A stretch of 49,193 nucleotides of DNA from Draconibacterium sp. GTDB lineage: Bacteria; Bacteroidota; Bacteroidia; Bacteroidales; Prolixibacteraceae. Where the stretch lies: NCBI GenBank assembly GCA_011620585.1, contig WOYV01000055.1:1-49193 (forward strand), in the 5' to 3' direction. Positions within the stretch are counted from its first letter, which is position 1, and each line of letters opens with the position of its first letter. The position numbers and the translations under genes are program-made. The notes beneath the pieces were generated by a model, which saw nothing but the letters and a program-made list of their open reading frames with translations, was not told the DNA's origin and made no database searches. Below are positions 468 through 47,333 of this stretch, piece after piece.

Positions 468-1007
468 ATGATGACAAATAATGACTTCAGTAAATTGATT
501 GAATCGTGGGATTATTTTGAGTTACTGCTCTATCAACTTAACTCTGAGCCTTCGCTTGAACCTGAATTTATGAAATTTGCTTTATACAACGAACATCCCA
601 ATGGCTGGAGAGCACTTTACATTGTCGATAAAATTTATGAGAAACACCCCGATTGGATCCAACCTTATATCCCTGAAATAATCGATCGGCTTAAATCGGA
701 AACACACCACGGGAAAAAAAGACACCTTTTACGGCTGATTGGCTTTCACGAAATTCAACCAGAACATTCGGGCTTCCTGGTCGATTACTGTCTGGGCATT
801 TTTACTTCGCAAAAAGAACCGGTAGCTAATCGCGTTCATGCCATGCAGGTATTGTATAATATTTCGGAGAAAGAACCCGATCTGAAACCTGAATTATTTG
901 AAATTATCCAACAGCAAACCGAGTTTGGTCCAACACCGGGCATTCGCTCGCGTGGGTCGAAACTCTCGAAAAAGTTATTTCAGCAAATCAACCAAACAAA
1001 AAACTAG
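468..1007 (+). CDS. Helical-repeat (HEAT/ARM-like) protein of unknown function
   Basis: A soluble protein of about 179 residues with no signal peptide or membrane segment. It is built of short amphipathic helices separated by Pro/Asp turns, such as HPNGWRALYIVDKIYEKHPD and the later repeats around KEPVANRVHAMQVLYNISEK, which suggests an alpha-solenoid related to HEAT repeats. I know no specific function. The start is placed at ATG 468 (or 471) because the TTG at 453 lies in the -7 box of its own promoter. Its last four bases overlap the end of the convergent DUF2723 gene. Confidence 0.7.
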   Translation: MMTNNDFSKLIESWDYFELLLYQLNSEPSLEPEFMKFALYNEHPNGWRALYIVDKIYEKHPDWIQPYIPEIIDRLKSETHHGKKRHLLRLIGFHEIQPEHSGFLVDYCLGIFTSQKEPVANRVHAMQVLYNISEKEPDLKPELFEIIQQQTEFGPTPGIRSRGSKLSKKLFQQINQTKN

Positions 1008-4000
1008 GCCGATAATTTATCGATCAATTCCTGCAATTGAGCATCGATCTCCTGTGTCAGTTCATCTTGCTTAAAATTTTTTGTAATGATTACCAGGTTT
1101 CTCAAACTGTTCATCTGGCGATTTTGATCCTCCTCCACCGCAGGCATAAATTCGTCGGGTAACGAAATATAATATTTGATCATGTCGAGGCTGTTTTTTG
1201 CCATTATCCGAACCACTTCGTTGGCTTTTTCTGTTGCTCCTGCACGGTAATATTGTTCAACCGCCGGGAAAGAGTCGAATGTATAAGGGATGATATCGTT
1301 CGGGAAAAGTTCGAACATGCGGTCGATCACTTTAATCGCCTCATCTTTTTTACCTTCCTGAATTAATGCTTCGGACAAACGGGCAAACATATAGCGCGTT
1401 TGCATAATGTTGATCTGTTTGCGGTTGTATTCGTCCATATGAATATTCGGATCGTTTACATTTCCCCAAACAAATTTGTTCATCACCTTATCATGGAGAA
1501 TGTCGGCATCAATCCGTCCATAATTCATTCCCTGACGAGGTGTGCGGATCGGCACCAAACGATAGGCCAGTCCTTCGAACTGAAGGTAATCAAGAAAGTA
1601 GATGCTTCCGGTGTAAAGCAAACTATGATCGATATAAATCGGGCGTTCCCAGTTATTGGCTGCAATCATATTCAATACGGCCATTTCGCTTTTCCCAATC
1701 ACACTTTTCCCAATGTGCATATTTACACGGTCCACTATTTTATCGGCATCCTCCGGTTTAACAGTTCCGGTTTCGAGCACCTTATTTTTATCCACAGTGA
1801 TGTGAAAATCGCGTGAGGGAAGAAAATCCAGCATATCGCCAGTGCTTACCTTCACTTTAGTGCGAACATCGTCGCTTCCCAGGAAATCCATCGCTTCACT
1901 CAGCTCAACAGGGCCTTCTATCCTGTCCTGGAAAAGAATCGCATCCATGCGCCCCATATAGTATTTATCGCGTGTAAACGAAAATGGGACAGGTGCGGCA
2001 TTGTTGCTTGCAATGGTTTGCTGATAAATGTACCAGTCCATACCCAGGTAGCCGATATTAATGATCCTGATATCCGGTCGAACACCTTCCACTTCCTGAA
2101 CATACCAAAGCGGGAAAGTATCGTTATCGCCGTAAGTAAATAAAATGGCATTTGGCGCACACGATTCGAGGTAATTTTTTGCATAATCGCGGGTCATATA
2201 TCTTCCCGAACGGTCGTGGTCGTGCCAGTTTTGCGAGGCAAGAATGCCAGGCACCAAAACCAGTGAAATTAAGGTTACCGCTATTGCCCCGGGCGCCCCT
2301 TTCAACACTTTGTTCACCGTTGAATAAAGCGCAACAACTCCCAGTCCCATCCAAATGGCAAAAGCATAATACGAACCGGCATAAGCATAATCACGTTCGC
2401 GGGGTTGAAACGGAGTTTGGTTCAGATAAACTACAATGGCAATTCCGGTTAGCACAAATAACAGCAGGGTTACCGAAAAAGTTTCCTTACCTACTTTGCC
2501 CCGATTATACTGAAAAAACATTCCGGTTAACCCAAATAATAGCGGCAGAAAATAATACACATTCCGGCTTGGATCGTTCTTCAGGTAATCAGGCAGTTCA
2601 TCTTTTGGGCCGATTTTAGCCCTGTCGAGAAAATCGATTCCACTGATCCAGTTACCATTGTTAAATTCGCCATTCCCTTGCATATCGTTTTGTCTTCCAA
2701 CAAAATTCCACATAAAATAGCGCATGTACATATAACCCACCTGGTAAGAAAAGAAGAAGCGCAGGTTCTCGCCAAATGTGGGTTTTTGCAGGGTTTTTAC
2801 TTCGCCCCGTTCACGTACCCTCACCGGAGTCCCTTTTACTTTTCCCCACTGTTTATAGGCCCTAATGTGATTCTCGTTATCACTGTACATACGTGGAAAA
2901 ACGGTTTCCATACTAGGGTCGAAAGTAGCTTTTCCGGCGATGGTCCCCGTAACTTTATATTTGCCATCTACTTTATTGTATTGGTCGGTCAGGTCGGTTG
3001 AGCCGGTTCGCGGAGCATTGTAATATTGTCCGTAAACCAGTGGCCGGTCACCGTATTGTGATCGGTTAAGATAACGAACCAGCGCAAACGCATTGTCGGG
3101 ATGGTTCTGGTTCATTGGTGGGTTGGCTGATGCACGTATCAGAATGAGTGCAAAAGATGTATATCCGATTAGGATTACCATTACCATGGTAATCGCAGTA
3201 TTCCAAACTACAAGGTTTCGCCTGCGCGTGTAACGGATGGCCCACACCGAACCGGCAATTGCTGCCACCACCAGGAACAAAATACCCGAGTTAAAAGGCA
3301 GGCCAAATCCATTTACAAATATCCGGTCGAAAAGAAATGCGATCTTAGGCACGCCGGGGATAATTCCATACTGGATGCCTAGCAAAATACCCATTGAAGC
3401 AGCGAGCGCTGTAATTACTCCTTTCCACGAGAATTCGTATTTTTTGAAATAGTACACCAACGCAATGGCAGGAATAGCCAGCAGGTTTAACAGGTGCACG
3501 CCTATCGACAGTCCCATTAAATAGGAAATAAGGATGAGCCAGCGGTTTGAATTCTTTTCGTCAGCCACATTCTCCCATTTCAGAATAGCCCAAAAAACGA
3601 GCGCTGTAAAAAACGAAGAGAGCGCGTAAACCTCACCTTCGACAGCTGAAAACCAGAACGAGTCGGTAAACGCAAAACCCAGGGCCCCCACCAAACCACT
3701 TCCCCAAATTGCGAGTTGTTCGCCGGTGCTGAGTTCTGCAGAATCAAAGAGTTTTCGTGCCAAATGGACAATTGTCCAGTACAAGATCATAATAGTTCCG
3801 GCGCTGGCTAATGCCGACACCGAATTCACCATTACGGCCGCTTTACCGGCATCGGGTGCAAACAAAGTAAAAACGCGGGCCAGGATCATAAATGTTGGCG
3901 CTCCCGGCGGATGGCCCACTTCGAGTTTAAACGAACTGGTGATAAATTCTCCACAGTCCCACCAACTTACTGTTGGTTCAAGGGTCATGAAATAAGTTAT

Positions 4001-4060
4001 TGCGGCAATTATAAATACGATCCACCCTAAAATGGCATTAATCTGCTTTGTGTATTGCAT
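1004..4060 (-). CDS. DUF2723 (TMEM260-like) multi-spanning membrane protein
   Basis: About 1018 residues. The N-terminal half has roughly ten or more hydrophobic segments and carries the family hallmark SWWDCGEFITSSFKLEVGHPPG in the first loop; this arrangement resembles GT-C glycosyltransferases, and the eukaryotic relative TMEM260 is an O-mannosyltransferase. After the membrane part comes a large soluble region (YGDNDTFPLWYVQEVEGVRPD) and a C-terminal helical, TPR-like stretch (EALIQEGKKDEAIKVIDRM). The family is very common in Bacteroidota; a role in glycosylating exported proteins is inference. The start is set at ATG 4060 rather than the upstream TTG 4081, because TATCTTTG occupies 4083-4090 and would put the TTG at or before the transcript start. 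Confidence 0.85.
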   Translation of the reverse strand: MQYTKQINAILGWIVFIIAAITYFMTLEPTVSWWDCGEFITSSFKLEVGHPPGAPTFMILARVFTLFAPDAGKAAVMVNSVSALASAGTIMILYWTIVHLARKLFDSAELSTGEQLAIWGSGLVGALGFAFTDSFWFSAVEGEVYALSSFFTALVFWAILKWENVADEKNSNRWLILISYLMGLSIGVHLLNLLAIPAIALVYYFKKYEFSWKGVITALAASMGILLGIQYGIIPGVPKIAFLFDRIFVNGFGLPFNSGILFLVVAAIAGSVWAIRYTRRRNLVVWNTAITMVMVILIGYTSFALILIRASANPPMNQNHPDNAFALVRYLNRSQYGDRPLVYGQYYNAPRTGSTDLTDQYNKVDGKYKVTGTIAGKATFDPSMETVFPRMYSDNENHIRAYKQWGKVKGTPVRVRERGEVKTLQKPTFGENLRFFFSYQVGYMYMRYFMWNFVGRQNDMQGNGEFNNGNWISGIDFLDRAKIGPKDELPDYLKNDPSRNVYYFLPLLFGLTGMFFQYNRGKVGKETFSVTLLLFVLTGIAIVVYLNQTPFQPRERDYAYAGSYYAFAIWMGLGVVALYSTVNKVLKGAPGAIAVTLISLVLVPGILASQNWHDHDRSGRYMTRDYAKNYLESCAPNAILFTYGDNDTFPLWYVQEVEGVRPDIRIINIGYLGMDWYIYQQTIASNNAAPVPFSFTRDKYYMGRMDAILFQDRIEGPVELSEAMDFLGSDDVRTKVKVSTGDMLDFLPSRDFHITVDKNKVLETGTVKPEDADKIVDRVNMHIGKSVIGKSEMAVLNMIAANNWERPIYIDHSLLYTGSIYFLDYLQFEGLAYRLVPIRTPRQGMNYGRIDADILHDKVMNKFVWGNVNDPNIHMDEYNRKQINIMQTRYMFARLSEALIQEGKKDEAIKVIDRMFELFPNDIIPYTFDSFPAVEQYYRAGATEKANEVVRIMAKNSLDMIKYYISLPDEFMPAVEEDQNRQMNSLRNLVIITKNFKQDELTQEIDAQLQELIDKLSA

Positions 4061-4082
4061 AATCCGATTTTTAGAACTCAAA

Positions 4083-15604: not shown

Positions 15605-17161
15605 CTATTTTTTGGGGATCAAAGTAATTAGTGGAATTATCATTTCTTCCATCGAAATACCACCGTGCTGGAAGGTATCTTTGTAATAATTTGCGTAGTA
15701 ATTATAATTATTCGGATAAGCAAAAAAATCAGTTCCCGTGGCAAAAATATAACTGGTACTTACATTTCGCGAAGGCAGGTAGATCTTTCGCGGGTCGCGA
15801 ACCTCAAATACATTTTTCGATTTGAAATTCAGGTTTCTACCCAATTTGTAACGCAGGTTGGTATTGGTTTCGCGGTCGCCAATTACTTTTACAGCATTGT
15901 TAACGCGGATGGCGCCGTGGTCGGTGGTTACTATCACGCGTACATCGTGTTCTGCCATCGATTTTAACATGTCGAGCAGCGCCGAGTTTTTAAACCAGCT
16001 AAGCGTAAGCGAACGATAGGCTTTCTCGTTGTTGGCCAGTTCGCGGATCATGTCCATTTCGGTACGGGCATGCGAGATCATATCTACAAAGTTCACCACC
16101 AATACCGAAAGGTCGTTAGCCAAAATGTTTTTCAGGCTATCGGCTACCCAGCGTTCTTTGCGAATACCTGCAGCTTTTTCGAAAAACATACTTTCCTTGC
16201 GTGCATAACGCGCCATTTGTTTTTGGAGCAAAACTTCCTCGTACTTGTTTTTATGCCCTTCGTTGTCGTCGTGCTCCCAAAGATCGGGGTACACTTTTTC
16301 GATTTCAGAAGGCATTAAACCTGCAAACATAGCGTTACGTGCATACATGGTAGCGGTAGGAAGTATGCTGCAATAAAGGTCTTCGGTTTGGGTGCGGAAA
16401 TATTCATTGATTACCGGGCTGAAAATCCGCCACTGGTCGTAACGCAGGTTGTCTATGATCAGAACCAGTGTCTTTTTTTTCTGATCTAAAAGTGGAAAAA
16501 CCACGTGTTTGAAAATATCGGTCGAAAACATTGGACGTTCGCCAAGTTCCTTGTTGAACCAATCCACGTAATTATCCTTTATGTATCGAAAAAAGGTTTT
16601 GTTGGCGTCGTCTTTTTGCATCGCCAAAACTTCGTCCATTGCCGAATCTTCTGATTCGCTTAGTTCTATTTCCCAGTAAACCAGTTTTTTATATATCTCC
16701 TTCCACTCGTCGAAACTCATCCGGTCGTTGATTTGCATCCCTATTTGTGCAAACTGCATTTGGTATTTCGAGGTAGTTTGCTGGGTCACCAATCTTTTCT
16801 GATCGATGTTCTTTTTCAGTGTAAGCAGAATTTGTTTTGGGTTCACCGGTTTAATCAGGTAGTCGGCAATTTTTGCGCCCACCGCCTCATCCATAATGTT
16901 CTCTTCTTCGCTTTTGGTAATGAGTACCACCGGCACATTGGGCGCAATCGCCTTAATACGTGTCAATGTTTCGAGCCCGGTGATTCCAGGCATGTTTTCG
17001 TCGAGAAAAATAATGTCGTAATACGAGTCGGAGACTTTCTCTACTGCATCGAGACCGTTGTTTGCGGTTTCCACCTCGTACCCTTTTTCCTGAAGGAACA
17101 GGATATGTGCGCGTAGTAAATCAATCTCGTCGTCGGTCCAAAGTATTCGTGGTTTATTCAT
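15605..17161 (-). CDS. porX: PorX-like response regulator with PglZ domain (type IX secretion)
   Basis: 518 residues. Residues 1-120 form a receiver domain with the acidic pair D10-D11, phospho-acceptor D54 (IIFLDENMPG) and K105 (IKPVNP). A helical linker follows, then a PglZ alkaline-phosphatase-like domain: metal ligand D237 in VLIIDNLRYDQW, T271 in LPTATMYARN as the likely nucleophile, FVDMISHAR and VIVTTDHGAI. There is no DNA-binding domain. In Porphyromonas gingivalis this architecture is PorX, partner of PorY, which controls type IX secretion genes and cleaves cyclic oligonucleotides. PorW/SprE is encoded next to it, which strengthens the call. Confidence 0.92.
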   Translation of the reverse strand: MNKPRILWTDDEIDLLRAHILFLQEKGYEVETANNGLDAVEKVSDSYYDIIFLDENMPGITGLETLTRIKAIAPNVPVVLITKSEEENIMDEAVGAKIADYLIKPVNPKQILLTLKKNIDQKRLVTQQTTSKYQMQFAQIGMQINDRMSFDEWKEIYKKLVYWEIELSESEDSAMDEVLAMQKDDANKTFFRYIKDNYVDWFNKELGERPMFSTDIFKHVVFPLLDQKKKTLVLIIDNLRYDQWRIFSPVINEYFRTQTEDLYCSILPTATMYARNAMFAGLMPSEIEKVYPDLWEHDDNEGHKNKYEEVLLQKQMARYARKESMFFEKAAGIRKERWVADSLKNILANDLSVLVVNFVDMISHARTEMDMIRELANNEKAYRSLTLSWFKNSALLDMLKSMAEHDVRVIVTTDHGAIRVNNAVKVIGDRETNTNLRYKLGRNLNFKSKNVFEVRDPRKIYLPSRNVSTSYIFATGTDFFAYPNNYNYYANYYKDTFQHGGISMEEMIIPLITLIPKK

Positions 17162-22676: not shown

Positions 22677-24881
22677 TTAGGAAATGTGAATGATACCTTT
22701 TCCTTTGCCTGTGAACTCCCCAATCATGCAGGCCGCCCGGATTCCGGCTGAACCCAGGTCAGATAAGAATTGACCGGCTTCTTCAGCAGGCAATGCAATC
22801 AGCAAGCCACCCGAGGTTTGGGCATCGCAAAGAAGAAGCTGATCGGTTCGCGGTAATTTTCCAAACTCCACAAAATCGGCCACAAATTCGTGGTTGTTAT
22901 ACGATCCACCCGGGATAACCCCGGCAACTGCCAGGTTTTTAACTTCGGGAAGAAAAGGAACTTTTTCATAAAAAACCGTTGCATTGCAGGCCGAACCTGC
23001 GGTCATTTCCTTCAGGTGTCCCATTAATCCAAAACCCGTTACATCGGTGCAGGCATGAACAGAGTATTTCTGCATTAAAATAGCTGCGGTTTTATTCAGT
23101 TGAGCCATCTGAGCCGTCACACTATCGCGCAAATCGTCTTCCACCATTCCACGTTTAATCGCAGTAGAAAGGATTCCGGTTCCGAGAGGTTTTGTAAGGA
23201 TGAGTTTATCTCCGGGTAAAGCGCCCGAATTTCTAATAATCTTGTCGGGGTGGATGGTTCCGGTAATAACCATCCCGAATTTGGGTTCGGGATCTTCAAC
23301 TGTGTGCCCGCCCAGCACCGGAATTCCGGCTTCGGCAGCTTTGTCCTGTGCGCCTTTCAGAATCAGTTCCAACACTTCCATCGGCAAAGAGTCTTCGGGA
23401 AAACCCACAATATTCAAAGCAAAAATAGGATGTGCCCCCATGGCATAAATATCGCTCAGTGCATTGGCAGCAGCTACCGCACCAAACTGGTACGGATCGT
23501 CAACAATGGGAGTAAAAAAATCGAGCGTCTGCACCACCGCCAGGTCGTCGCGAAGCAGGTAAACCGCAGCATCATCGGCGGTTTCGGTACCTACCAGCAC
23601 ATTTTTATCGACTACGGGCGCCAGGTTTTTCAACACTTTCTCGAGGTTTTGAGGTTGTATTTTACAGGCACAACCCAACCCGTGTGTATAATGTGTAAGT
23701 TTTATTTCTGAACTGAACGATTTTTCAGCCTGAATGTTGGAGTCATCTTTTGGCAGTAATTGTTTTACGGTTGCAATAATTTCACCGGCCGCTTTTTTTA
23801 CGTCCTGCAAAGTTGTTCCACGTCCGGTGGAAAAGCGAATGGTTCCCATCGCAAAATCAATCGGGACGTGCATGGCTTCGAGTACTGCCGATACGTCCAC
23901 GCTTTCGGCATGACAAGCCGCTCCTGCCGAAGCCGCGACCCCCTCCAAACGATCGATCAAGGTATTTGCCTCCACTTTTGGAAAAGAAACACTCGAAGTA
24001 TTTGGCAATCGCTGTTCGCGGTGCCCGTTTATTTTAATTTCGGGGAAAGCTCCTGAGAGCAGGGTTTCCAAATAATCGCGGGTTTTGCGATAGTGTTCGA
24101 AGTTTTCGGCGAGTTGGTTCGCAGCCAGTTGAGCCGCTGCACCCAGTCCAACAATTTCGAGCACATTCTCGGTCCCGGCACGCAGGTTTTGTTCATGGTC
24201 GGCGCCATGAATGAGTTTTTCCAGTTGGATTCCACTTCGGATATAAAGAGCGCCAATTCCTTTGGGAGCATATAATTTATGCCCGGCAATGCTCAACAGA
24301 TCGACACCCAGTTCGTTCACATTAACCGGTATTTTTCCGAGCGACTGTGCAGCATCTGAATGAAAAATGATAGAATGCCGACGGGCCAGTTCTGAAATTT
24401 CTTTGAGTGGCTGGATCGTCCCTACTTCGTTGTTGGCGTGCATCACACTGATCAGTATGGTCTCGGGACGAATCGCAGTTTTGAGTTCTTCCAGAGAAAT
24501 AATTCCGTCTTCATCCACCGGGATGGATGAAATTTCGAAGCCATTTTTTTCGAGATATCGACAAACCTCAAAAACCGCAGGGTGTTCGATCGCTGAAGTT
24601 ATAATGTGGTTTCCACGATGTTTGTTGGCAAAGGCAATTCCCTTTATCGCATAATTATTTGATTCGGTGCCGCCGCTGGTAAAAACGATTTCCGCAGGTT
24701 CGCAGCCGATCAGTGCAGCTAACTGGCGACGGGCTTTTTCCACCGCTAACTTGGTTTTTACACCATAACTGTGCACACTCGACGGATTTCCAAAAAACTC
24801 GTCGAGGTAGGGCCTCATCGCATCAGCCACCTCCTTGGCGATTGGCGTTGTCGCGTTATAATCAAGGTAAATCGGTTCCAA
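22677..24881 (-). CDS. selD: Fusion of cysteine desulfurase (NifS/IscS type) and selenide, water dikinase
   Basis: 734 residues. Residues 1-375 are a class V aminotransferase-fold desulfurase: YLDYNATTP start, SGGTESNN, PLP lysine K202 in IAGHKLYAPKG, active Cys 323 in SAGAACHAE. After a ~15-residue linker, residues ~393-734 are SelD: LTHYTHGLGCACK with catalytic Cys 404 (plain TGT, not selenocysteine) and Lys 407, TADDAAVY, DIYAMGAHPIFAL, LGGHTVEDPEPK and TDVTGFGLMGHL. The first half can release selenium from selenocysteine and the second uses it with ATP to make selenophosphate. mnmH ends 5 bp upstream in the same direction, so the product likely serves tRNA 2-selenouridine synthesis. Confidence 0.93.
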   Translation of the reverse strand: MEPIYLDYNATTPIAKEVADAMRPYLDEFFGNPSSVHSYGVKTKLAVEKARRQLAALIGCEPAEIVFTSGGTESNNYAIKGIAFANKHRGNHIITSAIEHPAVFEVCRYLEKNGFEISSIPVDEDGIISLEELKTAIRPETILISVMHANNEVGTIQPLKEISELARRHSIIFHSDAAQSLGKIPVNVNELGVDLLSIAGHKLYAPKGIGALYIRSGIQLEKLIHGADHEQNLRAGTENVLEIVGLGAAAQLAANQLAENFEHYRKTRDYLETLLSGAFPEIKINGHREQRLPNTSSVSFPKVEANTLIDRLEGVAASAGAACHAESVDVSAVLEAMHVPIDFAMGTIRFSTGRGTTLQDVKKAAGEIIATVKQLLPKDDSNIQAEKSFSSEIKLTHYTHGLGCACKIQPQNLEKVLKNLAPVVDKNVLVGTETADDAAVYLLRDDLAVVQTLDFFTPIVDDPYQFGAVAAANALSDIYAMGAHPIFALNIVGFPEDSLPMEVLELILKGAQDKAAEAGIPVLGGHTVEDPEPKFGMVITGTIHPDKIIRNSGALPGDKLILTKPLGTGILSTAIKRGMVEDDLRDSVTAQMAQLNKTAAILMQKYSVHACTDVTGFGLMGHLKEMTAGSACNATVFYEKVPFLPEVKNLAVAGVIPGGSYNNHEFVADFVEFGKLPRTDQLLLCDAQTSGGLLIALPAEEAGQFLSDLGSAGIRAACMIGEFTGKGKGIIHIS

Positions 24882-24886
24882 ATTTT

Positions 24887-25912
24887 TTACTTTTTGTTCA
24901 ACAAATCTATAATCATTTCTGCACTTCCAACAGGATCATCATTCTCCAGTTCCAGAGCGATGGTTTTCTCCTGATCTCGTTTTGAGGTACCAAAATCGTA
25001 GGCTTTGTCGTAGTAGCTCAGCGTTATCGACGCCACTTTTAAAAGCTCGCCTGCCTCAAGTGCTTCCGTTGCTTCGTTGGTCAGTTGTCCGCCCAGCCGT
25101 TTTTTGATCTTATCGATCATCTCGCTCAACAAGATTTTATCAAACGAACCGTATTCCTTCACCAGCCTCAGTTCGCGAAGCTGCTTAGGCACATTTATTT
25201 TTATGAGCGGCGCCTCCCGGATTTTCTGAAATAAAGGATCCGGAATTCCACACTTCCCAAGTTGGCGGCTTTCGTCTTCCACCCAAATTATTTTATTAAA
25301 ATCGAACTTTCGCCAGACGTCGGCGAGCAAATTCTCGAAATATTCGTTGCTGGGCTGCGGCTCCTGGCCGAGCGGCCCAAACACCGATCCCCGATGATTG
25401 GCGATTCCTTCGATATCCAGAAATTGTTCTCCCTTGTTTTTCATAATCTGAAGTATCTCGGTTTTCCCGCTTCCGGTATAACCACCCAATACCACTAATT
25501 TCGCCGGCTGCGAAAACTGATCCCTGATGTATTTTCGGTAGGCTTTGTATCCTCCTTCGAGAACAGAAACATCGAGCCCGGCAGTTTCAAACAGCCACGC
25601 CATACTACCCGAACGCATTCCTCCACGCCAGCAGTGTACCAGTATTTTTTTGTTTCGCGCCAGTTTTTTTGCCTCGCGCACAAAGCCCGACATTTTGGGC
25701 CCAACGTAATCGAGCCCGAGTAATACGGCGTTTTCCTTACCTCCCGCTTTATAATTGATTCCGACTTCGCGGCGTTCGTCGTTGTCAAAAATAGGAATGT
25801 TTACGGCACCGGGAATGTGCGCCTGTTCGTACTCGGCGGGCGACCTAACATCGATCAGCGGAATACTGTCGGTAAGCGGAAGCAGCTCTTCGATGGATAG
25901 TTTTTTTGGCAT
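24887..25912 (-). CDS. mnmH: tRNA 2-selenouridine synthase
   Basis: 341 residues. The N-terminal rhodanese domain carries active Cys 94 in LVHCWRGGMRS; the C-terminal P-loop domain has GGYTGSGKT (143-151). MnmH (SelU/YbbB) replaces sulfur by selenium in 2-thiouridine at the wobble base of Lys, Glu and Gln tRNAs, using selenophosphate. The next gene encodes the SelD fusion that makes that donor. A TACCTTTG -7 box at 25929-25936 precedes the start. Confidence 0.95.
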   Translation of the reverse strand: MPKKLSIEELLPLTDSIPLIDVRSPAEYEQAHIPGAVNIPIFDNDERREVGINYKAGGKENAVLLGLDYVGPKMSGFVREAKKLARNKKILVHCWRGGMRSGSMAWLFETAGLDVSVLEGGYKAYRKYIRDQFSQPAKLVVLGGYTGSGKTEILQIMKNKGEQFLDIEGIANHRGSVFGPLGQEPQPSNEYFENLLADVWRKFDFNKIIWVEDESRQLGKCGIPDPLFQKIREAPLIKINVPKQLRELRLVKEYGSFDKILLSEMIDKIKKRLGGQLTNEATEALEAGELLKVASITLSYYDKAYDFGTSKRDQEKTIALELENDDPVGSAEMIIDLLNKK

Positions 25913-41051: not shown

Positions 41052-42563
41052 TCAAAGTTGTTTGAAGGCTTTTCGAAGGTCTTCGTCGGGTTTGATGATG
41101 TTATAGTTTTCCCAGAACTTTTCGTCGAAACTACCCAGAAGTTCTACGAAAACATCGTTTCTTCCAAATCGCTCGTCATTCGGGAAACGCTTTAATTCAG
41201 TGGGCTGCATGTTGGTCACCAGTAAATCGGAAATACTGTGAAATTCGGAATTTATTTTGTCGCGCTTGCTCCTGATCTTGAATTTTACCGAAGCACGAAC
41301 TGTTGAAAGATGCCATTTCCCCTGGTATTGCTGGTAGTTTACCTGGTATTGCACATACGATGGCCGGGCTTTTACACCCTGTGGTTTTTTTCGAATCATC
41401 AAACTTGTGGCTTCGTTCATACTGCTTTTATTAAAACGAAACTCGGCATGAACGACCGCAAACGACTCGCGGTGTACATACATTTCGCCAATAAACCCCG
41501 GGAAAACATCTTCCGACACAGGAGCAAAACCAACTACGTAAACCGGCTCTTCGTTGTACCAGATTACTTTAGTTATTTCGTATTTGTATTGATCCTGATA
41601 ACTTTTACTGATAAAGCTTTCCATGGTTTTCATTACATCGAGCTGAATGATGGTAAAAGGCCCTCCCTGTAATTTAAAATTCAACCAGCGAAAAGGCTGG
41701 ACATCGGGGCTCTTTCGTCCTTTAACCAGACGAACCAAATCGGACCGGACTGTGTTGGTGTACGGCGATTTCAGAATTTCGATCACCGCCTCCGAAACAT
41801 TGATGTATTGATTGTCCTGTTCAACCGTTTCGCGGTAAAATGCGGTCATCAGCCGGTTATGTGTGCTGTAGTTTTTTTCAATATTATCGCGAATATGCTG
41901 TAATAAATCCTGTGTAGTGGTTGCTGTTACCTTTATTTCCCTGATCCTGATCGAAACAGGCTCGAGAATGAACAAATCTTCGTCGAGTAGTTTTTCAGCC
42001 GGAATTCTTTTCTGCGCAAATCCCATCGACGAAATTATCACCGTATCGTGAATGCAATCAGGATGGAGTTTCAGTAAAAAATCGCCGTCGATGTTGGTGA
42101 TGGTGCCGATAGGTTTATCGAGCACCGAAACCGATGCGTAAGGCAGCGCTTTTTCGCGACGCTCTTCAACCACCTTCCCCCGAAGAAAAAAATACGGCGC
42201 CGGGAGAGTGTCATTAACCAGTGTATCGCCCGGCGCAGCAGTTTTTCGGGTAATGATAATCTGGTTCAAACGTTCCTGAAGATTGAACTTTCCGGGGTCG
42301 AAAAGTTGGTTCAATACGGTGTATAACGACTTATTTCGGGCGTCGATATTGATTTTCCGCTCGGGATCGACAATACTGGCATCGTACGAAAAATAGACAC
42401 CTGCCTGCCAACTGATTTGCTCGAGAATATGTTCAAGAAGCTGATTCTCGTAGCTAACATTTACCCGGCGTTCGAAAACAGAGCCATCCTGTTGCTGGCC
42501 CTTCGCCAAAAAGGGGAGAAACAGGATGGCTGTTAAAATAACTATCTTAGCCGGGTGTATCAT
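41052..42563 (-). CDS. STN and carboxypeptidase-regulatory-like domain protein
   Basis: 503 residues with a signal peptide (1-22). Residues ~32-107 form an STN domain (LLEHILEQISWQAGVYFSYD..TVLNQLFD), ~126-205 a CarboxypepD_reg-like beta domain (GKVVEERREKALPYASVSVLDKP), and the rest a large beta-rich region seen in Bacteroidota proteins of unknown function (NRLMTAFYRETVEQDNQYINVSEA). In TonB-dependent receptors these two domains precede a plug and barrel; here there is neither. Its ATG directly follows the stop codon of the protease gene (TAGATG), so the two are co-translated. Last gene of the ECF sigma operon. Confidence 0.85.
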   Translation of the reverse strand: MIHPAKIVILTAILFLPFLAKGQQQDGSVFERRVNVSYENQLLEHILEQISWQAGVYFSYDASIVDPERKINIDARNKSLYTVLNQLFDPGKFNLQERLNQIIITRKTAAPGDTLVNDTLPAPYFFLRGKVVEERREKALPYASVSVLDKPIGTITNIDGDFLLKLHPDCIHDTVIISSMGFAQKRIPAEKLLDEDLFILEPVSIRIREIKVTATTTQDLLQHIRDNIEKNYSTHNRLMTAFYRETVEQDNQYINVSEAVIEILKSPYTNTVRSDLVRLVKGRKSPDVQPFRWLNFKLQGGPFTIIQLDVMKTMESFISKSYQDQYKYEITKVIWYNEEPVYVVGFAPVSEDVFPGFIGEMYVHRESFAVVHAEFRFNKSSMNEATSLMIRKKPQGVKARPSYVQYQVNYQQYQGKWHLSTVRASVKFKIRSKRDKINSEFHSISDLLVTNMQPTELKRFPNDERFGRNDVFVELLGSFDEKFWENYNIIKPDEDLRKAFKQL

Positions 42564-44129
42564 CTAAAACATCTTTTTCAACTCGAACGAAGTTTTAATT
42601 TCTTCCCCATTCCGCAATACGGTCACCCGAATTTTTTTGTTTTCCTTGCTTTGAAGCAGTAAGTTAATATCGTTCAGTTCGATCGAACGATGACTGTTGC
42701 TATTGATTGTTAAAATCTGATCGTCTTTCTGAAGACCGGCAAAATACGCCGGCGAATCCTTGGTAATATCGGCAATGGTATACACGGGTAATCCGGGAAC
42801 CGGGTTTATCACCTCCATGCCGCTCATGTTGTAATTAAAATCGTCTTTTATACGGCTGTTTGGCCGGAGAGTGAGCCGGCTGTTGCGGTAATCGACCGTA
42901 ACATAAAAGCGACGCAAAATTTCGGCGCCAATGGTCCCGTTTCGGTCGTTTGTGGCAATTAACCGCTCCATTAAATCCGAATCGGGGAAAGCTACAATAG
43001 GTTGGGTCAGCAAAAGCGGACCTACCCAAATGGCATCGATCCTTCCTTTAGTCCCGTACAAATCACCACTCAACCCACGTCCGAGAAAAGTTTCCACATG
43101 TTTCTCAGGAATGTGAATCCGCTCGTCAGACTTTTCGGAGAGCCACAGTGCATCGCTGGCGCCAGTGTCGACCAACAATTTAACCGGAACGGTTTTCATG
43201 CTGTCGGTTACAATGGTCGTCCTCACAAACGGTTTGTATCCGTCGAAGTGCAAAGGCATGATAATGTCGTTTTTATGGTCGCGGTATTTGTAATATTCGG
43301 GACGATAAAGGGTAAGTTCTTCATCGCTGTAATTAATCTCCACCACAAAATCCTTGAACAGGTTAAATCCGATCAGGCCGTGAACCGGAATCCCCAGCAT
43401 GTGCGAAATCTGAAAATCTTCGTCGATAATCATTTGCACTTCCTGGTTCTGTGCCGACAAACCGTGGATACGGAGCACGTTGTTCCCCGAACGATAAGCC
43501 GTAAGTCCTTCTCCGTCATCCAGCCCTTTTACCGTAACCGGCATCATGTAGTTTAGGTTCAGCTTGTTTACAAAAGGCAGCTCGGTAATAATCGGAAAAC
43601 GAACCCCGGTGTCGAGAATAAAATTCAGCGTGTCCGAGTCGTTGATATTTACCGGGATAATGATCAGGTTACTTGATGATTTAAATTTGATCGTGATTTT
43701 TTTTGCCCGGGGATTGTCGAACATAAAACCCCGGTTGCTGGCAAAATATTGTTGCGCATTTCGGTCGAGCCCGATACTTTCGTCGAGCGGAACGTAATCG
43801 CGAACAACGAGCAGGTTGTCTTCAATTTCGAATAAAAGATAGAAATCCTTCATCAGTTTGTCGAGAACATATTTAATTGGTTTGTTTGAAATGTTCAGGC
43901 TGATCTTTTTTTCTTTAAGATCGTTTGAATTGTATTTGTAATCGATATCGAGGTACTTGCAGATTTTTTCGATCACACTCGACAGTGGTTCTTCTTCAGC
44001 ATAAATACTGATATTTTGATCGAGCGCCTGGTTTTTTACATCCTGTGCGTTTAATTGGCCCGGTAGAAATACCAGGACAAGGCCTGCCATCAGAATGAAA
44101 TACTTTATAGAATTAGGTATTGTTTTCAT
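42564..44129 (-). CDS. STN-domain aspartic (retropepsin-like) protease with PDZ domain
   Basis: 521 residues with a signal peptide (1-29). Residues ~35-110 form an STN domain (LSSVIEKICKYLDIDYKY..YVLDKLMKDF). Two retropepsin-like halves follow: FILDTG (D173) with the paired hydrophobic-Gly motif GLIGFNLF (~251-258), and LLVDTG (D321) with GTIGAEILRRF (~398-408). Residues ~440-515 are a PDZ domain (PVYTIADITKDSPAYFAGLQKDDQIL). Two DTG motifs in one chain would allow an intramolecular dimer like pepsin. Aspartyl protease-PDZ proteins are common in Bacteroidota; the added STN domain and position behind FecR are what stand out. Starts 12 bp after the anti-sigma gene. Confidence 0.88.
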   Translation of the reverse strand: MKTIPNSIKYFILMAGLVLVFLPGQLNAQDVKNQALDQNISIYAEEEPLSSVIEKICKYLDIDYKYNSNDLKEKKISLNISNKPIKYVLDKLMKDFYLLFEIEDNLLVVRDYVPLDESIGLDRNAQQYFASNRGFMFDNPRAKKITIKFKSSSNLIIIPVNINDSDTLNFILDTGVRFPIITELPFVNKLNLNYMMPVTVKGLDDGEGLTAYRSGNNVLRIHGLSAQNQEVQMIIDEDFQISHMLGIPVHGLIGFNLFKDFVVEINYSDEELTLYRPEYYKYRDHKNDIIMPLHFDGYKPFVRTTIVTDSMKTVPVKLLVDTGASDALWLSEKSDERIHIPEKHVETFLGRGLSGDLYGTKGRIDAIWVGPLLLTQPIVAFPDSDLMERLIATNDRNGTIGAEILRRFYVTVDYRNSRLTLRPNSRIKDDFNYNMSGMEVINPVPGLPVYTIADITKDSPAYFAGLQKDDQILTINSNSHRSIELNDINLLLQSKENKKIRVTVLRNGEEIKTSFELKKMF

Positions 44130-44141
44130 GACTTTGTTGTT

Positions 44142-45194
44142 TTACTGGTTGTTTTTACGGCTCGAAAGTGTGTAATGTTCTGCGTCGCCCGTTAATTCGA
44201 GATCAAATGTGAGCCGAATAACATCTAATACGAAATCTGCGGGTTTCTGATCGAAATGACCTTCATAACTGAGGCCATTTAGCCCTGGTCCTGACAAGTC
44301 GACCCGGATATGATACGTTTTTTCAAGCGTTCGTGCCACATCTTCCAACGCAACTTTGTCGAATACGAGGTCGTGCGTCTTCCACGACAGAAAGTTTGGA
44401 TCAGTATTCACCGACTTCCCGAGCAGGCTGTTTTGTTTAAACATGGTGCCCTTTTCGCCGGGGGTGAGATACACTTCCTTTACTTCTGCCGGTTCAATTT
44501 CCTGATTGTTTGTTACCTGCACTTTGCCGGTTTTTACAATCACTTCCACGGTTTCGTCTTCAGGATAAGCGCACACATTAAAAGAGGTACCCAATACTTT
44601 TACCAGCGCATTTCCGGCATGAATTACAAAAGGCTTTCCGGGATTGGGTTTTACTTCGAAAAATGCCTCGCCCTCGATAGTTACTTCGCGAACGCCGCCT
44701 CTGAACTTACGCGGAAAAGTAAGCTTCGAGTTGCTGTTTAGTGCAACCACCGAACCATCGGGTAAAACATACCCGGTTAAAACCTGTTTGTCTGCCGAAA
44801 TAATCTCGCTGAAATAAGCCGGTTCCTGGTTTCGGAAACCAATATAATAACCTACTGCCCCAAGTAAGAGCGCAACGACCAACACCGCAGCATATTTGTA
44901 CAACGCTGTCCAAACCTCCTTTCTTTCTTTTTTAAGCTGAACGGTTTTGCCTTGCGACGGGGTAGTTTGTGCATTTACCATTTTCCAGGCCTTGTTGGCG
45001 TCGAAACGTTTTAACTGAAAGTAAGTGTCGACTTTCCCAAGCATTTTTCGGGCCTGCTCCAGTTCTTCGCGGTTTTCATCCGACCTCTCCAGCCAGGCCT
45101 CCATTTCCAATTGTTCCCGTTTGGTGGCTTCTCCCGCCAGGTAGCGGGCCATCTTTCCCGGGTCCAAATTTTCTATGTTTTCCATTTTTCCCAT
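44142..45194 (-). CDS. FecR-family anti-sigma factor
   Basis: About 350 residues. The cytosolic N-terminus (ARYLAGEATKREQLEMEAWL) binds the sigma factor, one membrane helix follows (YAAVLVVALLLGAVGYYIGF), and the periplasmic part contains the FecR domain (GSVVALNSNSKLTFPRKF, VTIEGEAFFEV, KVLGTSFNV) and a C-terminal DUF4974 segment (LVFDKVALEDVARTLEKTY). In FecR systems the last part is contacted by an STN domain. The start is ATG 45194 (or 45185); a GTG at 45215 is less likely. It follows the sigma gene in the same operon. Confidence 0.92.
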   Translation of the reverse strand: MGKMENIENLDPGKMARYLAGEATKREQLEMEAWLERSDENREELEQARKMLGKVDTYFQLKRFDANKAWKMVNAQTTPSQGKTVQLKKERKEVWTALYKYAAVLVVALLLGAVGYYIGFRNQEPAYFSEIISADKQVLTGYVLPDGSVVALNSNSKLTFPRKFRGGVREVTIEGEAFFEVKPNPGKPFVIHAGNALVKVLGTSFNVCAYPEDETVEVIVKTGKVQVTNNQEIEPAEVKEVYLTPGEKGTMFKQNSLLGKSVNTDPNFLSWKTHDLVFDKVALEDVARTLEKTYHIRVDLSGPGLNGLSYEGHFDQKPADFVLDVIRLTFDLELTGDAEHYTLSSRKNNQ

Positions 45195-45228
45195 CTTATT
45201 GGTAAGACAATGCACTACTTTTTTACCC

Positions 45229-45810
45229 CTAATCGATATTCTTCCGAAAAGTCAATAAAAAGAATAAAAAGAAGTTATATTTTTTTAATTTCTCGCGTAA
45301 TGTTTTGATTGCCAACCCCATTTGAACTTCGACTGTTTTTACCGAAATATTTAAACGATCGGCAATTTCGCGGTATTTAAGGCCTTCTTCGCGACTAAGG
45401 CGAAATATCTCCTGTCGTTTTTCAGGCAATTCGGCAATGCTTTTTTCGATATCCTTTTGCAGGCCCGGTTCCATAAAATTATCCCTGTATTCATATTCTT
45501 CAGCTTCAGAGATTACAAGGTTGGCATGTTGCGTTTTTATTTTTTCGTGCTTGATTTTATTTAAACAAAGATTTTTCACCGATCGAAAAAGATAGCTTTT
45601 TAAAGAAGTTTCGATATGGAATTGGGCGCGCTTTTCCCAAAATTTTACAAAAAAACCCTGAACCAGTTCTTCTGCTTCGTCGTCGTTCTGCAACACTCGC
45701 GAAGCAAACACACAAAGCGCCTGGTAGTACAAACGGAAAAGTTGTTCGAATGCTGCGCTGTCGCTCTTTTTCAGGTCTTCGGGTAAGGATTGCTCATTTA
45801 TTGGGCCCAT
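45229..45810 (-). CDS. ECF-type RNA polymerase sigma factor
   Basis: 193 residues with sigma region 2 (FEQLFRLYYQALCVFASRVLQNDDEAEELVQGFFVKFWE) and region 4 (LPEKRQEIFRLSREEGLKYREIADRLNISVKTVEVQM). This is the Bacteroidota FecI-like form usually paired with FecR and a SusC-type receptor. It is the first gene of a four-gene operon. A TAACTTTA -7 candidate lies at 45836-45843. The extreme C-terminus is unusually Phe-rich (KKYNFFLFFLLTFRKNID). Confidence 0.93.
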   Translation of the reverse strand: MGPINEQSLPEDLKKSDSAAFEQLFRLYYQALCVFASRVLQNDDEAEELVQGFFVKFWEKRAQFHIETSLKSYLFRSVKNLCLNKIKHEKIKTQHANLVISEAEEYEYRDNFMEPGLQKDIEKSIAELPEKRQEIFRLSREEGLKYREIADRLNISVKTVEVQMGLAIKTLREKLKKYNFFLFFLLTFRKNID

Positions 45811-45900: not shown

Positions 45901-45930
45901 TTTGCCAATTCGTTTAAGGTCTTATTTTTG
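45901..45930 (+). promoter_or_regulatory. Promoter of the POT-like transporter (leaderless)
   Basis: TTTG at 45901-45904 and TATTTTTG at 45923-45930, 18 bp apart. The ATG at 45936 is only five bases downstream. Confidence 0.6.
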
Positions 45931-45935
45931 TGCAC

Positions 45936-47333
45936 ATGAAGGGTAAAAATCATAACACAGGAAAAAAAGAAACCAGGAATTTTCCACGGGCATTTTGGGT
46001 AGCCAATACCGTTGAACTCTTTGAAAGAGCGGCTTATTACGGCGTATTTATTGTAATTACGTTGTACCTGTCGCGGATAATTGGTTTTGGCGATATCGAA
46101 GCGGCGACCATTGCAGGTACCTTTTCCGCCATTTTATACCTGTTGCCCACTTTTGCCGGAGCCTATGCCGATAAAATCGGTTTCCGTAAATCGTTGATGC
46201 TGGCCTTTGGTTTGCTAACGCTTGGCTATGCCGGAATGGGTTTTTTACCTACCCTTTTCGAATCGGCAGGCCTGGCCGAATACGGCGACAAAACTGTTTT
46301 TCACGGGCTTGAAACTTCGGGCTATCGCTATGCAATATTGCCCGCAATGGCGCTCATTATTCTTGGGGGTTCTTTTATTAAATCGGTAATTACGGGCACT
46401 GTTGCCAAGGAAACCACTGTTGAAAACAGGGCACGAGGCTACAGTATTTTCTATGCCATGGTAAACATCGGCGCCTTTTCGGGGAAAACGATTGTGAAAC
46501 CGCTGCGCGAAGCAATGGGAAACGAAGGATTGGTTTGGATCAGCTATTTCTCAGCCGTTATGACCTTACTCGGATTAGTGCTTGTTTTTTTTATGTACAG
46601 CAGTAAAAAACACGAAGGCGAAGGGAAATCGATTAAACAGTTGTGGATTAGTTTTACAAAAGTACTTACCAATGCCCGATTGATTATCCTGATCTTAATT
46701 ATAACCGGATTTTGGATGGTGCAACACCAAATGTACGCCACTATGCCCAAATATGTCCTTCGTTTGGCAGGCGAAGGTGCATCGCCATCGTGGTATGCCA
46801 ACGTAAATCCTTTGGTGGTATTTACGATGGTGGGAATTGTTACGCATTTTATGCGCAAACGATCGGCGCTTTTCAGTATGACCGTTGGAATGTTGATCAT
46901 GCCAATGTCGGCCTTGTTTATGGCGTCGGGGAACCTGATGAGCGGAGAAATTCTGGGGATGCACCCCGTAGCTTTTATGATGGTGGTGGGTATTGCCTTT
47001 CAGGGGTTTGCCGAAACTTTTATTTCACCGCGTTTCCTTGAATACTTTTCGTTACAGGCGCCCAAAGGTGAGGAAGGACTGTATTTGGGATTTAGCCACC
47101 TTCACTCCTTTTTATCTTCCATTTTTGGTTTTGTCATGTCTGGCGTTTTACTCGATAAATATTGCCCCAATCCGCGTTTGTTCGCTACGCACGACGAGTG
47201 GGCAAAGGCTGCTGCCAATGCACATTATATCTGGTATTATTTTGTTGGTATTGCTATGATTTCAGCCACCGCCCTGGTCATTTACGGGCGGGTAGTGAAA
47301 AGGATTGACAGCAAAAAGCAAATTTCGATCTAA
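45936..47333 (+). CDS. POT-like MFS transporter
   Basis: 465 residues with about 12 membrane segments. The first helix has VELFERAAYYGVF, which fits the ExxER..YYG proton-coupling motif of proton-dependent peptide transporters (POT/PTR2), but the rest is less typical and the substrate may not be a peptide. Loops GFRKSLMLAFGLL and VENRARGYSIFYAMVNIGAFSG are MFS-like. ATG 45936 is chosen because GTG 45930 lies in the -7 box. Confidence 0.8.
   Translation: MKGKNHNTGKKETRNFPRAFWVANTVELFERAAYYGVFIVITLYLSRIIGFGDIEAATIAGTFSAILYLLPTFAGAYADKIGFRKSLMLAFGLLTLGYAGMGFLPTLFESAGLAEYGDKTVFHGLETSGYRYAILPAMALIILGGSFIKSVITGTVAKETTVENRARGYSIFYAMVNIGAFSGKTIVKPLREAMGNEGLVWISYFSAVMTLLGLVLVFFMYSSKKHEGEGKSIKQLWISFTKVLTNARLIILILIITGFWMVQHQMYATMPKYVLRLAGEGASPSWYANVNPLVVFTMVGIVTHFMRKRSALFSMTVGMLIMPMSALFMASGNLMSGEILGMHPVAFMMVVGIAFQGFAETFISPRFLEYFSLQAPKGEEGLYLGFSHLHSFLSSIFGFVMSGVLLDKYCPNPRLFATHDEWAKAAANAHYIWYYFVGIAMISATALVIYGRVVKRIDSKKQISI

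Follow-up and report, generated by a model that had tools for sequence, protein, structure and literature searches.

In cell-surface signalling of the FecI/FecR/FecA, FoxI/FoxR/FoxA and PupI/PupR/PupB kind, an extracytoplasmic function (ECF) sigma factor is paired with a FecR-family anti-sigma factor that carries an STN-like tail, and STN-bearing partners are encoded alongside. According to a study of FoxR, the STN domain of the transducer binds the anti-sigma factor and protects it from proteolysis, Prc degrades the C-terminal part of FoxR, and the site-1 protease of FoxR is described as not identified (PMC11637429). STN docking likewise underlies the protection of PupR by PupB (PMC7186176), and the action of Prc and RseP on FecR has been reviewed (PMC9249621). 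The locus described here lies in a stretch of 49,193 nucleotides from Draconibacterium sp. (contig WOYV01000055.1; the whole stretch is called the window below) and is an operon built from the same kinds of sigma factor, anti-sigma factor and STN-bearing partners. Unlike the systems above it contains no receptor; STN is found on a protein with a CarboxypepD_reg domain and a core predicted to be LolA-like (abbreviated STN-CPD, for the secreted STN-CarboxypepD_reg protein of the operon) and, in the family Prolixibacteraceae, on a PDZ aspartic protease as well.

Two further groups of proteins invite comparison. In the AlgU-MucA-MucB/AlgW and RpoE-RseA-RseB/DegS systems a sigma factor, a membrane anti-sigma factor, a periplasmic LolA-fold protein and a PDZ protease work as a set. 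The locus shares the sigma factor, the membrane anti-sigma factor and a PDZ protease, and STN-CPD, with its predicted fold, is a candidate for the LolA-fold member; the systems differ in that the anti-sigma factor here is of the FecR family, the protease is aspartic and not a serine protease such as DegS or AlgW, and STN domains are added. MucB is described as a LolA-like lipid sensor that shields MucA from the PDZ protease AlgW (PMC7400510). The stand-alone PDZ aspartic proteases of Bacteroidota (Asp_protease_2 plus PDZ) have the same two lobes and PDZ domain at ~22–45% core identity, but they lack STN and, in 24 regions, an adjoining sigma factor or FecR. Judged by titles and the beginnings of abstracts, the literature covered, which mostly leaves out subscription journals and preprints, describes neither the operon nor the fusion. 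One paper has a table row for BT4460-62, in which a CarboxypepD-like protein stands together with an acyltransferase and a sigma-70 factor; the row gives no mechanism (PMC10434189).

The larger finding is the receptor-less operon of sigma factor, FecR and STN-CPD, which extends beyond Prolixibacteraceae; the STN-protease is an insertion into it. We regard it as fairly probable that the locus is a receptor-less cell-surface signalling system with an STN-anchored accessory protease.

Results

Anatomy of the operon

An earlier sequence-only reading of the window had described a four-gene operon with two DTG motifs on one of two STN proteins and no receptor barrel, and the open reading frames (ORFs) and Pfam matches agree with it (Table 1). 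The gaps as called are 13 bp between the sigma factor gene and fecR, 12 bp between fecR and the protease gene and 0 bp between the protease and STN-CPD genes; a later ATG of FecR, seven codons on, is possible and gives the first gap the length of 34 bp stated in that reading. The sigma factor, of the FecI-like Bacteroidota type, adjoins an anti-sigma factor with a FecR domain (E 8.3e-16) and an STN-like C-terminal FecR_C domain (3.3e-10), whose membrane anchor would be the hydrophobic segment near residues 85–110. The protease has the makings of a Bacteroidota PDZ aspartic protease, with Asp_protease_2 matched in two stretches (1.3e-13), two D-T/S-G motifs, both of them DTG, and a C-terminal PDZ domain (PDZ_6, 7e-8). 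CarbopepD_reg_2 is matched on STN-CPD (5e-10). Putative signal peptides indicate that the protease and STN-CPD would be secreted. No TonB-dependent receptor lies inside the operon, be it that of the window or that of any locus read, and both STN domains of the operon are on non-receptor proteins; a receptor elsewhere in the genome is possible.

Table 1 Genes of the operon in the window.
Feature	Position	Strand	Basis
ECF sigma factor, 193 aa, Sig70_bacteroi1 (TIGR02985) type	45229-45810	-	profile match, E 2.7e-50
FecR-family anti-sigma factor, 357 aa as called; FecR domain and FecR_C tail	44142-45215	-	Pfam
STN-protease, 521 aa; STN (~36-112), two-lobed aspartic protease (~140-425; D173, D321), PDZ (~438-518)	42564-44129	-	Pfam, AF2, Foldseek
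STN-CPD, 503 aa; STN (~30-108), CarboxypepD_reg (~125-205), predicted LolA/MucB-like core (~215-495)	41052-42563	-	Pfam, AF2, Foldseek

Conservation of the operon and its constant partner

The scan of named genomes yielded 55 loci, 50 with an STN-protease and five with STN-less homologues, and the closest named relatives by protease protein are Maribellus and Draconibacterium. Cultured isolates that carry the operon include Draconibacterium orientale (L072) and Maribellus luteus (L066). As called, 44 of the 50 loci have the four genes in order on the same strand; the number is 45 with L080, where an antisense ORF displaced the fecR and protease ORFs in the greedy caller and BLAST finds them. 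Three other loci (L088, L101 and L107) start inside fecR at a contig end, which places the sigma gene outside the view, and in L085 and L087 the sigma factor, FecR and STN-CPD are absent from the DNA at hand. The order is thus not a matter of chance, since it recurs in 44 named loci and L080, and the linkage on which the sequence-only reading depended is conserved. A one-base overlap joins the protease and STN-CPD genes in 31 of 44 loci. L107 has its protease split over two ORFs and was kept out of the full-length count; L115 and L163 are probably from the same genome.

In wider samples the protease is matched in 80 of 296 genomes of the phylum (E 1e-10), where only the match of the window itself covers residue 1, and in 62 of 198 genomes of the order (E 1e-5), where three matches, all in the family of the window, run from residue 1 or 2 to 521 and many weak ones touch only the STN domain of larger proteins. 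Within the family it is matched in 107 of 140 genomes (E 1e-20). STN-CPD (E 1e-50) is matched in 128 of the 140, which include 103 of the 107 with the protease and 25 without it. These 25 belong to the genera g290 (8) and g296 (17); the STN domain is covered in 17 of them, a contig edge truncates the match in G515, and seven of g296 have an STN-less CPD only. The protease occurs without STN-CPD in four genomes. Two of these, G509 and G624, have contig-edge fragments of the protease only and were not counted as losses; the losses in G548 and G584 are regarded as real. Identical matches at identical places suggest that G584 is the same genome as G628, from which L085 comes.

From the remaining families of the order, twenty regions were picked by hand among search matches, with preference for paired CPD matches. 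Their gene order is CPD-sigma-FecR-STN-CPD in 17, sigma-FecR-STN-CPD in two and STN-CPD alone in one (L260), so that sigma factor and FecR adjoin STN-CPD in 19 of 20. A further region, from G238 (L173), has the order CPD-sigma-FecR-STN-CPD. In the sister genera g290 and g296, all six regions carry sigma-FecR-STN-CPD without the protease (FecR is split into two ORFs in L290, and L287 stops at a contig end). Over all STN-CPD genes FecR lies upstream in 116 of 119, the misses being a caller artefact (L080), a gene at the edge of its locus (L205) and one genuine case (L260). Around STN-less CPD proteins FecR is found downstream in 19 of 32, is not nearby in 13 and is upstream in none. Since the regions of other families and of g290 and g296 run the operon without the protease, the constant STN partner among the regions examined is STN-CPD, and the protease has been inserted into the operon within Prolixibacteraceae. 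The proposal of the sequence-only reading that the protease replaces the TonB-dependent receptor is for the same reason not supported.

Receptors near the operon

A locus of the ordinary SusC/SusD type, with its receptor elsewhere in the genome and both STN proteins as bystanders, was considered, as further FecR genes and receptor-sized ORFs with STN are present in the genome. Large ORFs flanking the operon were scanned for this across the 50 named loci (at least 430 aa; 96 unlabelled ORFs minus 17 POT transporters gave 79, with operon-type genes left out). A TonB-dependent receptor barrel is matched by four of the 79 and by none in the operon. Two of the four, those of L100 and L119, were scanned singly; they stand on the opposite strand, more than 3 kb from the operon. 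The other two matches presumably represent the corresponding ORFs in L105 and L106. No SusD family appears among the 25 most frequent of 97 families near the operon, a list that a few rare ones could escape. Together with the presence of the STN proteins inside the operon in 45 of 50 loci and of STN-CPD beside FecR in other families, these counts make a locus of this type, with its STN proteins as bystanders, highly improbable, and a SusC/SusD-linked FecI/FecR locus was not favoured. The same counts are the outcome of the check that the sequence-only reading had asked for, on a SusC/SusD pair next to the operon in relatives.

Origin of the STN-protease

A tree of 30 STN-protease cores (of 67 STN-proteases; L097 is outside it) and 59 STN-less homologues places all STN-bearing proteins on one branch with support of 100/100. 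A stand-alone protease family gained STN once and joined the operon inside Prolixibacteraceae. The STN domain is associated with an upstream FecR: FecR precedes 63 of 65 STN-proteases, with L085 and L295 as the misses, and none of 20 STN-less proteases. These counts, like those for STN-CPD and STN-less CPD above, refer to unique genes of at least 350 aa, absence being counted only where 2.5 kb of upstream sequence was given; the 4.1-kb contig of L087 has too little flank and was left out. In none of 24 STN-less protease regions (25 less L160, which gave no protease ORF) does a sigma factor or FecR lie within two genes of the protease on either side; a sigma gene lies 3.7 to 5 kb away in three of them.

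The same distribution bears on the possibility that the protein is a housekeeping enzyme, that is, an ordinary periplasmic aspartic protease expressed together with an envelope-stress module, whose STN domain would contact a conserved partner other than FecR (itself, or the STN of a receptor). The stand-alone relatives, which align from residue 86 onward in 79 of the 295 other genomes of the phylum, and the lack of an adjoining sigma factor or FecR in the STN-less regions are as this alternative would have them. So is the persistence of STN and protease together in L085, L087 and L295, which lack the cognate genes (L087 as far as its contig reaches); identity to the window there is 78, 79 and 71% in the STN domain and 78, 73 and 69% in the core, respectively. 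The near-confinement of STN, among the genes counted, to protease copies that stand behind FecR argues the other way. Moreover, further FecR_C proteins are present in G584, G548 and G629 (the bin of L087, in which there is also a single STN-less CPD core), so the STN-protease that survives without the operon may still dock on a FecR in those genomes. We consider a housekeeping role unlikely, if the least unlikely of the alternatives. L295 comes from a 2.2-Mb genome (G548) of the same genus as the window, in which the first catalytic motif of the protease is altered and the sigma factor, FecR and STN-CPD of the operon are missing.

Catalytic residues and proteolysis of FecR

Both catalytic aspartates are kept in 64 of 67 unique full-length STN-proteases, in keeping with the expectation of the sequence-only reading, and in 59 of 59 STN-less homologues. 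D321 is lost in L082 and D173 in L096 and L097, each with an intact operon. L109, L280 and L295 have other changes within a catalytic motif; a change of the middle residue alone need not abolish activity, because the second motif has L, N or M at this position in five of the 59 STN-less homologues. In the tree, L082, L096 and L109 fall together in one clade (support 99/98). Ratios of nonsynonymous to synonymous substitution (dN/dS) over the protease region are 0.067 for L082–L109 and 0.139 for L096–L097, with 0.074 for the window–L066 and 0.042 for L066–L071 (the pair L086–L091 is missing), which indicates that purifying selection persists in the degenerate-site clade and is most relaxed, among the pairs compared, in L096–L097. 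From these residues, the protease is probably an active enzyme in most species and probably only a binder in at least one clade.

These data can be set against a role as the dedicated site-1 protease of the operon, in which the STN domain would dock on FecR_C or on STN-CPD and the aspartic protease would cut FecR upon a signal, as Prc and a site-1 protease do in Pseudomonas. Protease, PDZ and STN are on one chain inside the operon, the STN domain goes with operon membership, and the aspartates are conserved as described. Proteolysis of FecR is moreover the known activating step, the FoxR study leaves the place of a site-1 protease vacant, and Wettstadt et al. suggest there that PDZ proteases may be among the contacts of STN domains (PMC11637429). 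On the other hand, the sister genera run the operon without the protease, L082 and L096/L097 have lost a catalytic aspartate while the operon is intact and the gene is under purifying selection, and the STN-protease outlives sigma factor, FecR and STN-CPD in L085 and L295 and, within its contig, in L087. We therefore judge a dedicated site-1 protease rather unlikely. The earlier suggestion that the protease may cut FecR is kept in part: cleavage itself is possible, and the protease-less genera, the degenerate-site clade and the STN-proteases without operon partners are evidence against it as an essential step.

The degenerate-site clade (L082, L096, L097 and L109), which keeps full-length genes and a conserved STN domain, speaks for a protector or pseudoprotease, whose STN would compete with STN-CPD for FecR and shield it, catalysis being secondary and directed at another periplasmic substrate. 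A precedent is that overproduced transducer STN blocks FoxR proteolysis and that inactive Prc is dominant negative (PMC11637429). Binding alone does not explain a family in which nearly all members keep both catalytic aspartates, and we hold this alternative to be unlikely.

N-terminal domains and predicted folds

Pfam calls the N-terminal domain of the window protease FecR_C (E 1.9e-5; 25.0 bits at a cut-off of 24.4) and not STN, so the name given to it in the sequence-only reading stands by profile comparison and not by Pfam. Across an alignment of 32 protease members, the window included and 28 of them STN-bearing, FecR_C is matched by 27 and STN by 13. In profile comparisons the STN-CPD domain of that name (3.1e-15) and a set of 11 SusC-like N-termini (9.7e-14) are nearer to it than the FecR tail of the operon (1.6e-5). 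A duplicated FecR tail is for this reason not a favoured origin of the domain. The STN domain of STN-CPD in the window falls under the Pfam cut-off (E 0.0014), yet STN is matched by 26 of 34 members of the corresponding alignment. In genus g304 (L280, G600) the protease STN is only 27% identical to that of the window and the core 49%, the core still being clear; a Pfam scan of the L280 protease does not name the diverged STN.

The AF2 model of the protease has a mean pLDDT of 79.7, with a weaker STN region, and Foldseek relates it to pepsin-like two-lobed proteases (E ~2e-9, target TM ~0.5). The model of STN-CPD (mean pLDDT 82.4) matches proteins of the LolA superfamily (PDB accession numbers 3bk5, 2.4e-8; 3buu, 8.6e-7; Porphyromonas gingivalis LolA3 9tp6, 1.2e-6) and MucB (6jau, 8.1e-7; 6in9, 9.1e-7), and RseB at a lower level (2p4b, 4.0e-4). 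By sequence, STN-CPD matches solved structures only through its CarboxypepD region, to SusC-like receptors. With moderate confidence, the core of STN-CPD resembles the LolA and MucB folds.

Discussion

Proposed mechanism and the evidence against it

In the signalling scheme with an accessory protease that we favour, the sigma factor would be held by membrane-anchored FecR, and the STN domain of STN-CPD would dock on the periplasmic STN-like tail of FecR in place of a TonB-dependent transducer. Following the precedent of FoxA/FoxR and PupB/PupR, FecR would be protected from proteases while docked. For the LolA-like core of STN-CPD the analogy is with MucB/RseB: it would detect an envelope component, for example a lipid, a lipoprotein or a lipopolysaccharide (LPS) fragment; sensing would release FecR, which would then be cut to free the sigma factor. 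In Prolixibacteraceae, a stand-alone periplasmic PDZ aspartic protease that gained STN once has been placed between FecR and STN-CPD, and it may act as an accessory that is kept near the complex through its STN domain. Secretion, docking, the sensing role, the protease that cuts FecR and the regulon are the parts of this scheme that we infer.

Several observations weigh against it. The loci are related and partly hand-picked, and their counts are not independent trials. The likeness to LolA, MucB and RseB is that of a predicted model, at a target-normalised TM of 0.23–0.45. STN-CPD also occurs without sigma factor and FecR, in L260. No clear ECF-type promoter is seen upstream in 61 entries read by eye without statistics, and autoregulation through a shared ECF promoter was on these sequences set aside. 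In a mirror-tree analysis of 50 operons (shared signal removed, 1000 permutations, 21 pairs), FecR_C does not covary with the protease STN (partial correlation 0.023; 378/1000 permutations as high), which also counts against a dedicated site-1 protease, nor with the STN of STN-CPD (−0.114; 968/1000). The one clear covarying pair, the STN and CarboxypepD domains of STN-CPD (0/1000), is within a single protein; the values for the middle part of FecR with the STN of STN-CPD (45/1000) and with its CarboxypepD domain (24/1000) were not taken as evidence, given 21 pairs tested. Mean identity is 75% for the protease STN, 49% for FecR_C and 40% for the STN of STN-CPD. That the protease STN is so much more conserved than FecR_C argues against the latter as its main constraint, is in line with a housekeeping role and suggests, as far as conservation can tell, either an intramolecular role or a partner that is not FecR.

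The elements can also be combined into a hybrid of two classical envelope routes, in which a FecR sigma switch would sense the envelope through a LolA/RseB-like STN protein and a PDZ aspartic protease would have been captured as site-1 protease through STN fusion in Prolixibacteraceae, to become a dead STN binder in one clade. This combination is doubtful.

Neighbouring genes and other genes of the window

Divergent from the operon, the window encodes a POT-type peptide transporter (45930-47333), and 17 of 50 named loci have a member of its cluster (C7). A protein of ~860 aa with MG2 and CarboxypepD_reg domains (cluster C9; L172, 10693-13317; domain content from one scanned member) follows STN-CPD in 14 of the 50. 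A small gene downstream of the operon in many relatives (cluster C4, 27 loci, among L066–L114) we take to be rbfA. In many relatives an FtsX/MacB permease is also found downstream (cluster C5, 23 loci), which in our view resembles LolC/LolE. Peptidase S41 with PDZ is matched by eight of the 79 large ORFs near the operon (cluster C12 in eight loci, L080, L086, L091, L095, L098 and L112 among them); it is of the CtpA/Prc kind, the protease type known from FoxR signalling.

Elsewhere in the window, a response regulator is fused to a PglZ domain (15605-17161), an architecture that we take to be that of PorX of type IX secretion. A class V aminotransferase fused to an AIR-synthase-type domain (22677-25912) has a rhodanese protein alongside and presumably belongs to a selenium pathway. 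A TMEM260-like protein O-mannosyltransferase of 1025 aa is encoded at 1004-4081.

Significance

How cleavage of the anti-sigma factor starts is unsettled in cell-surface signalling, and an STN docking domain fused to a PDZ protease within a FecR operon offers a concrete place to test it. The fusion-less sister genera, the degenerate-site clade and the genomes without the remaining operon genes provide a natural set of variants. The operon indicates that, in Bacteroidales, a secreted STN protein can take the place of a receptor beside FecR-type sigma switches, which widens the range of signals to which they may respond.

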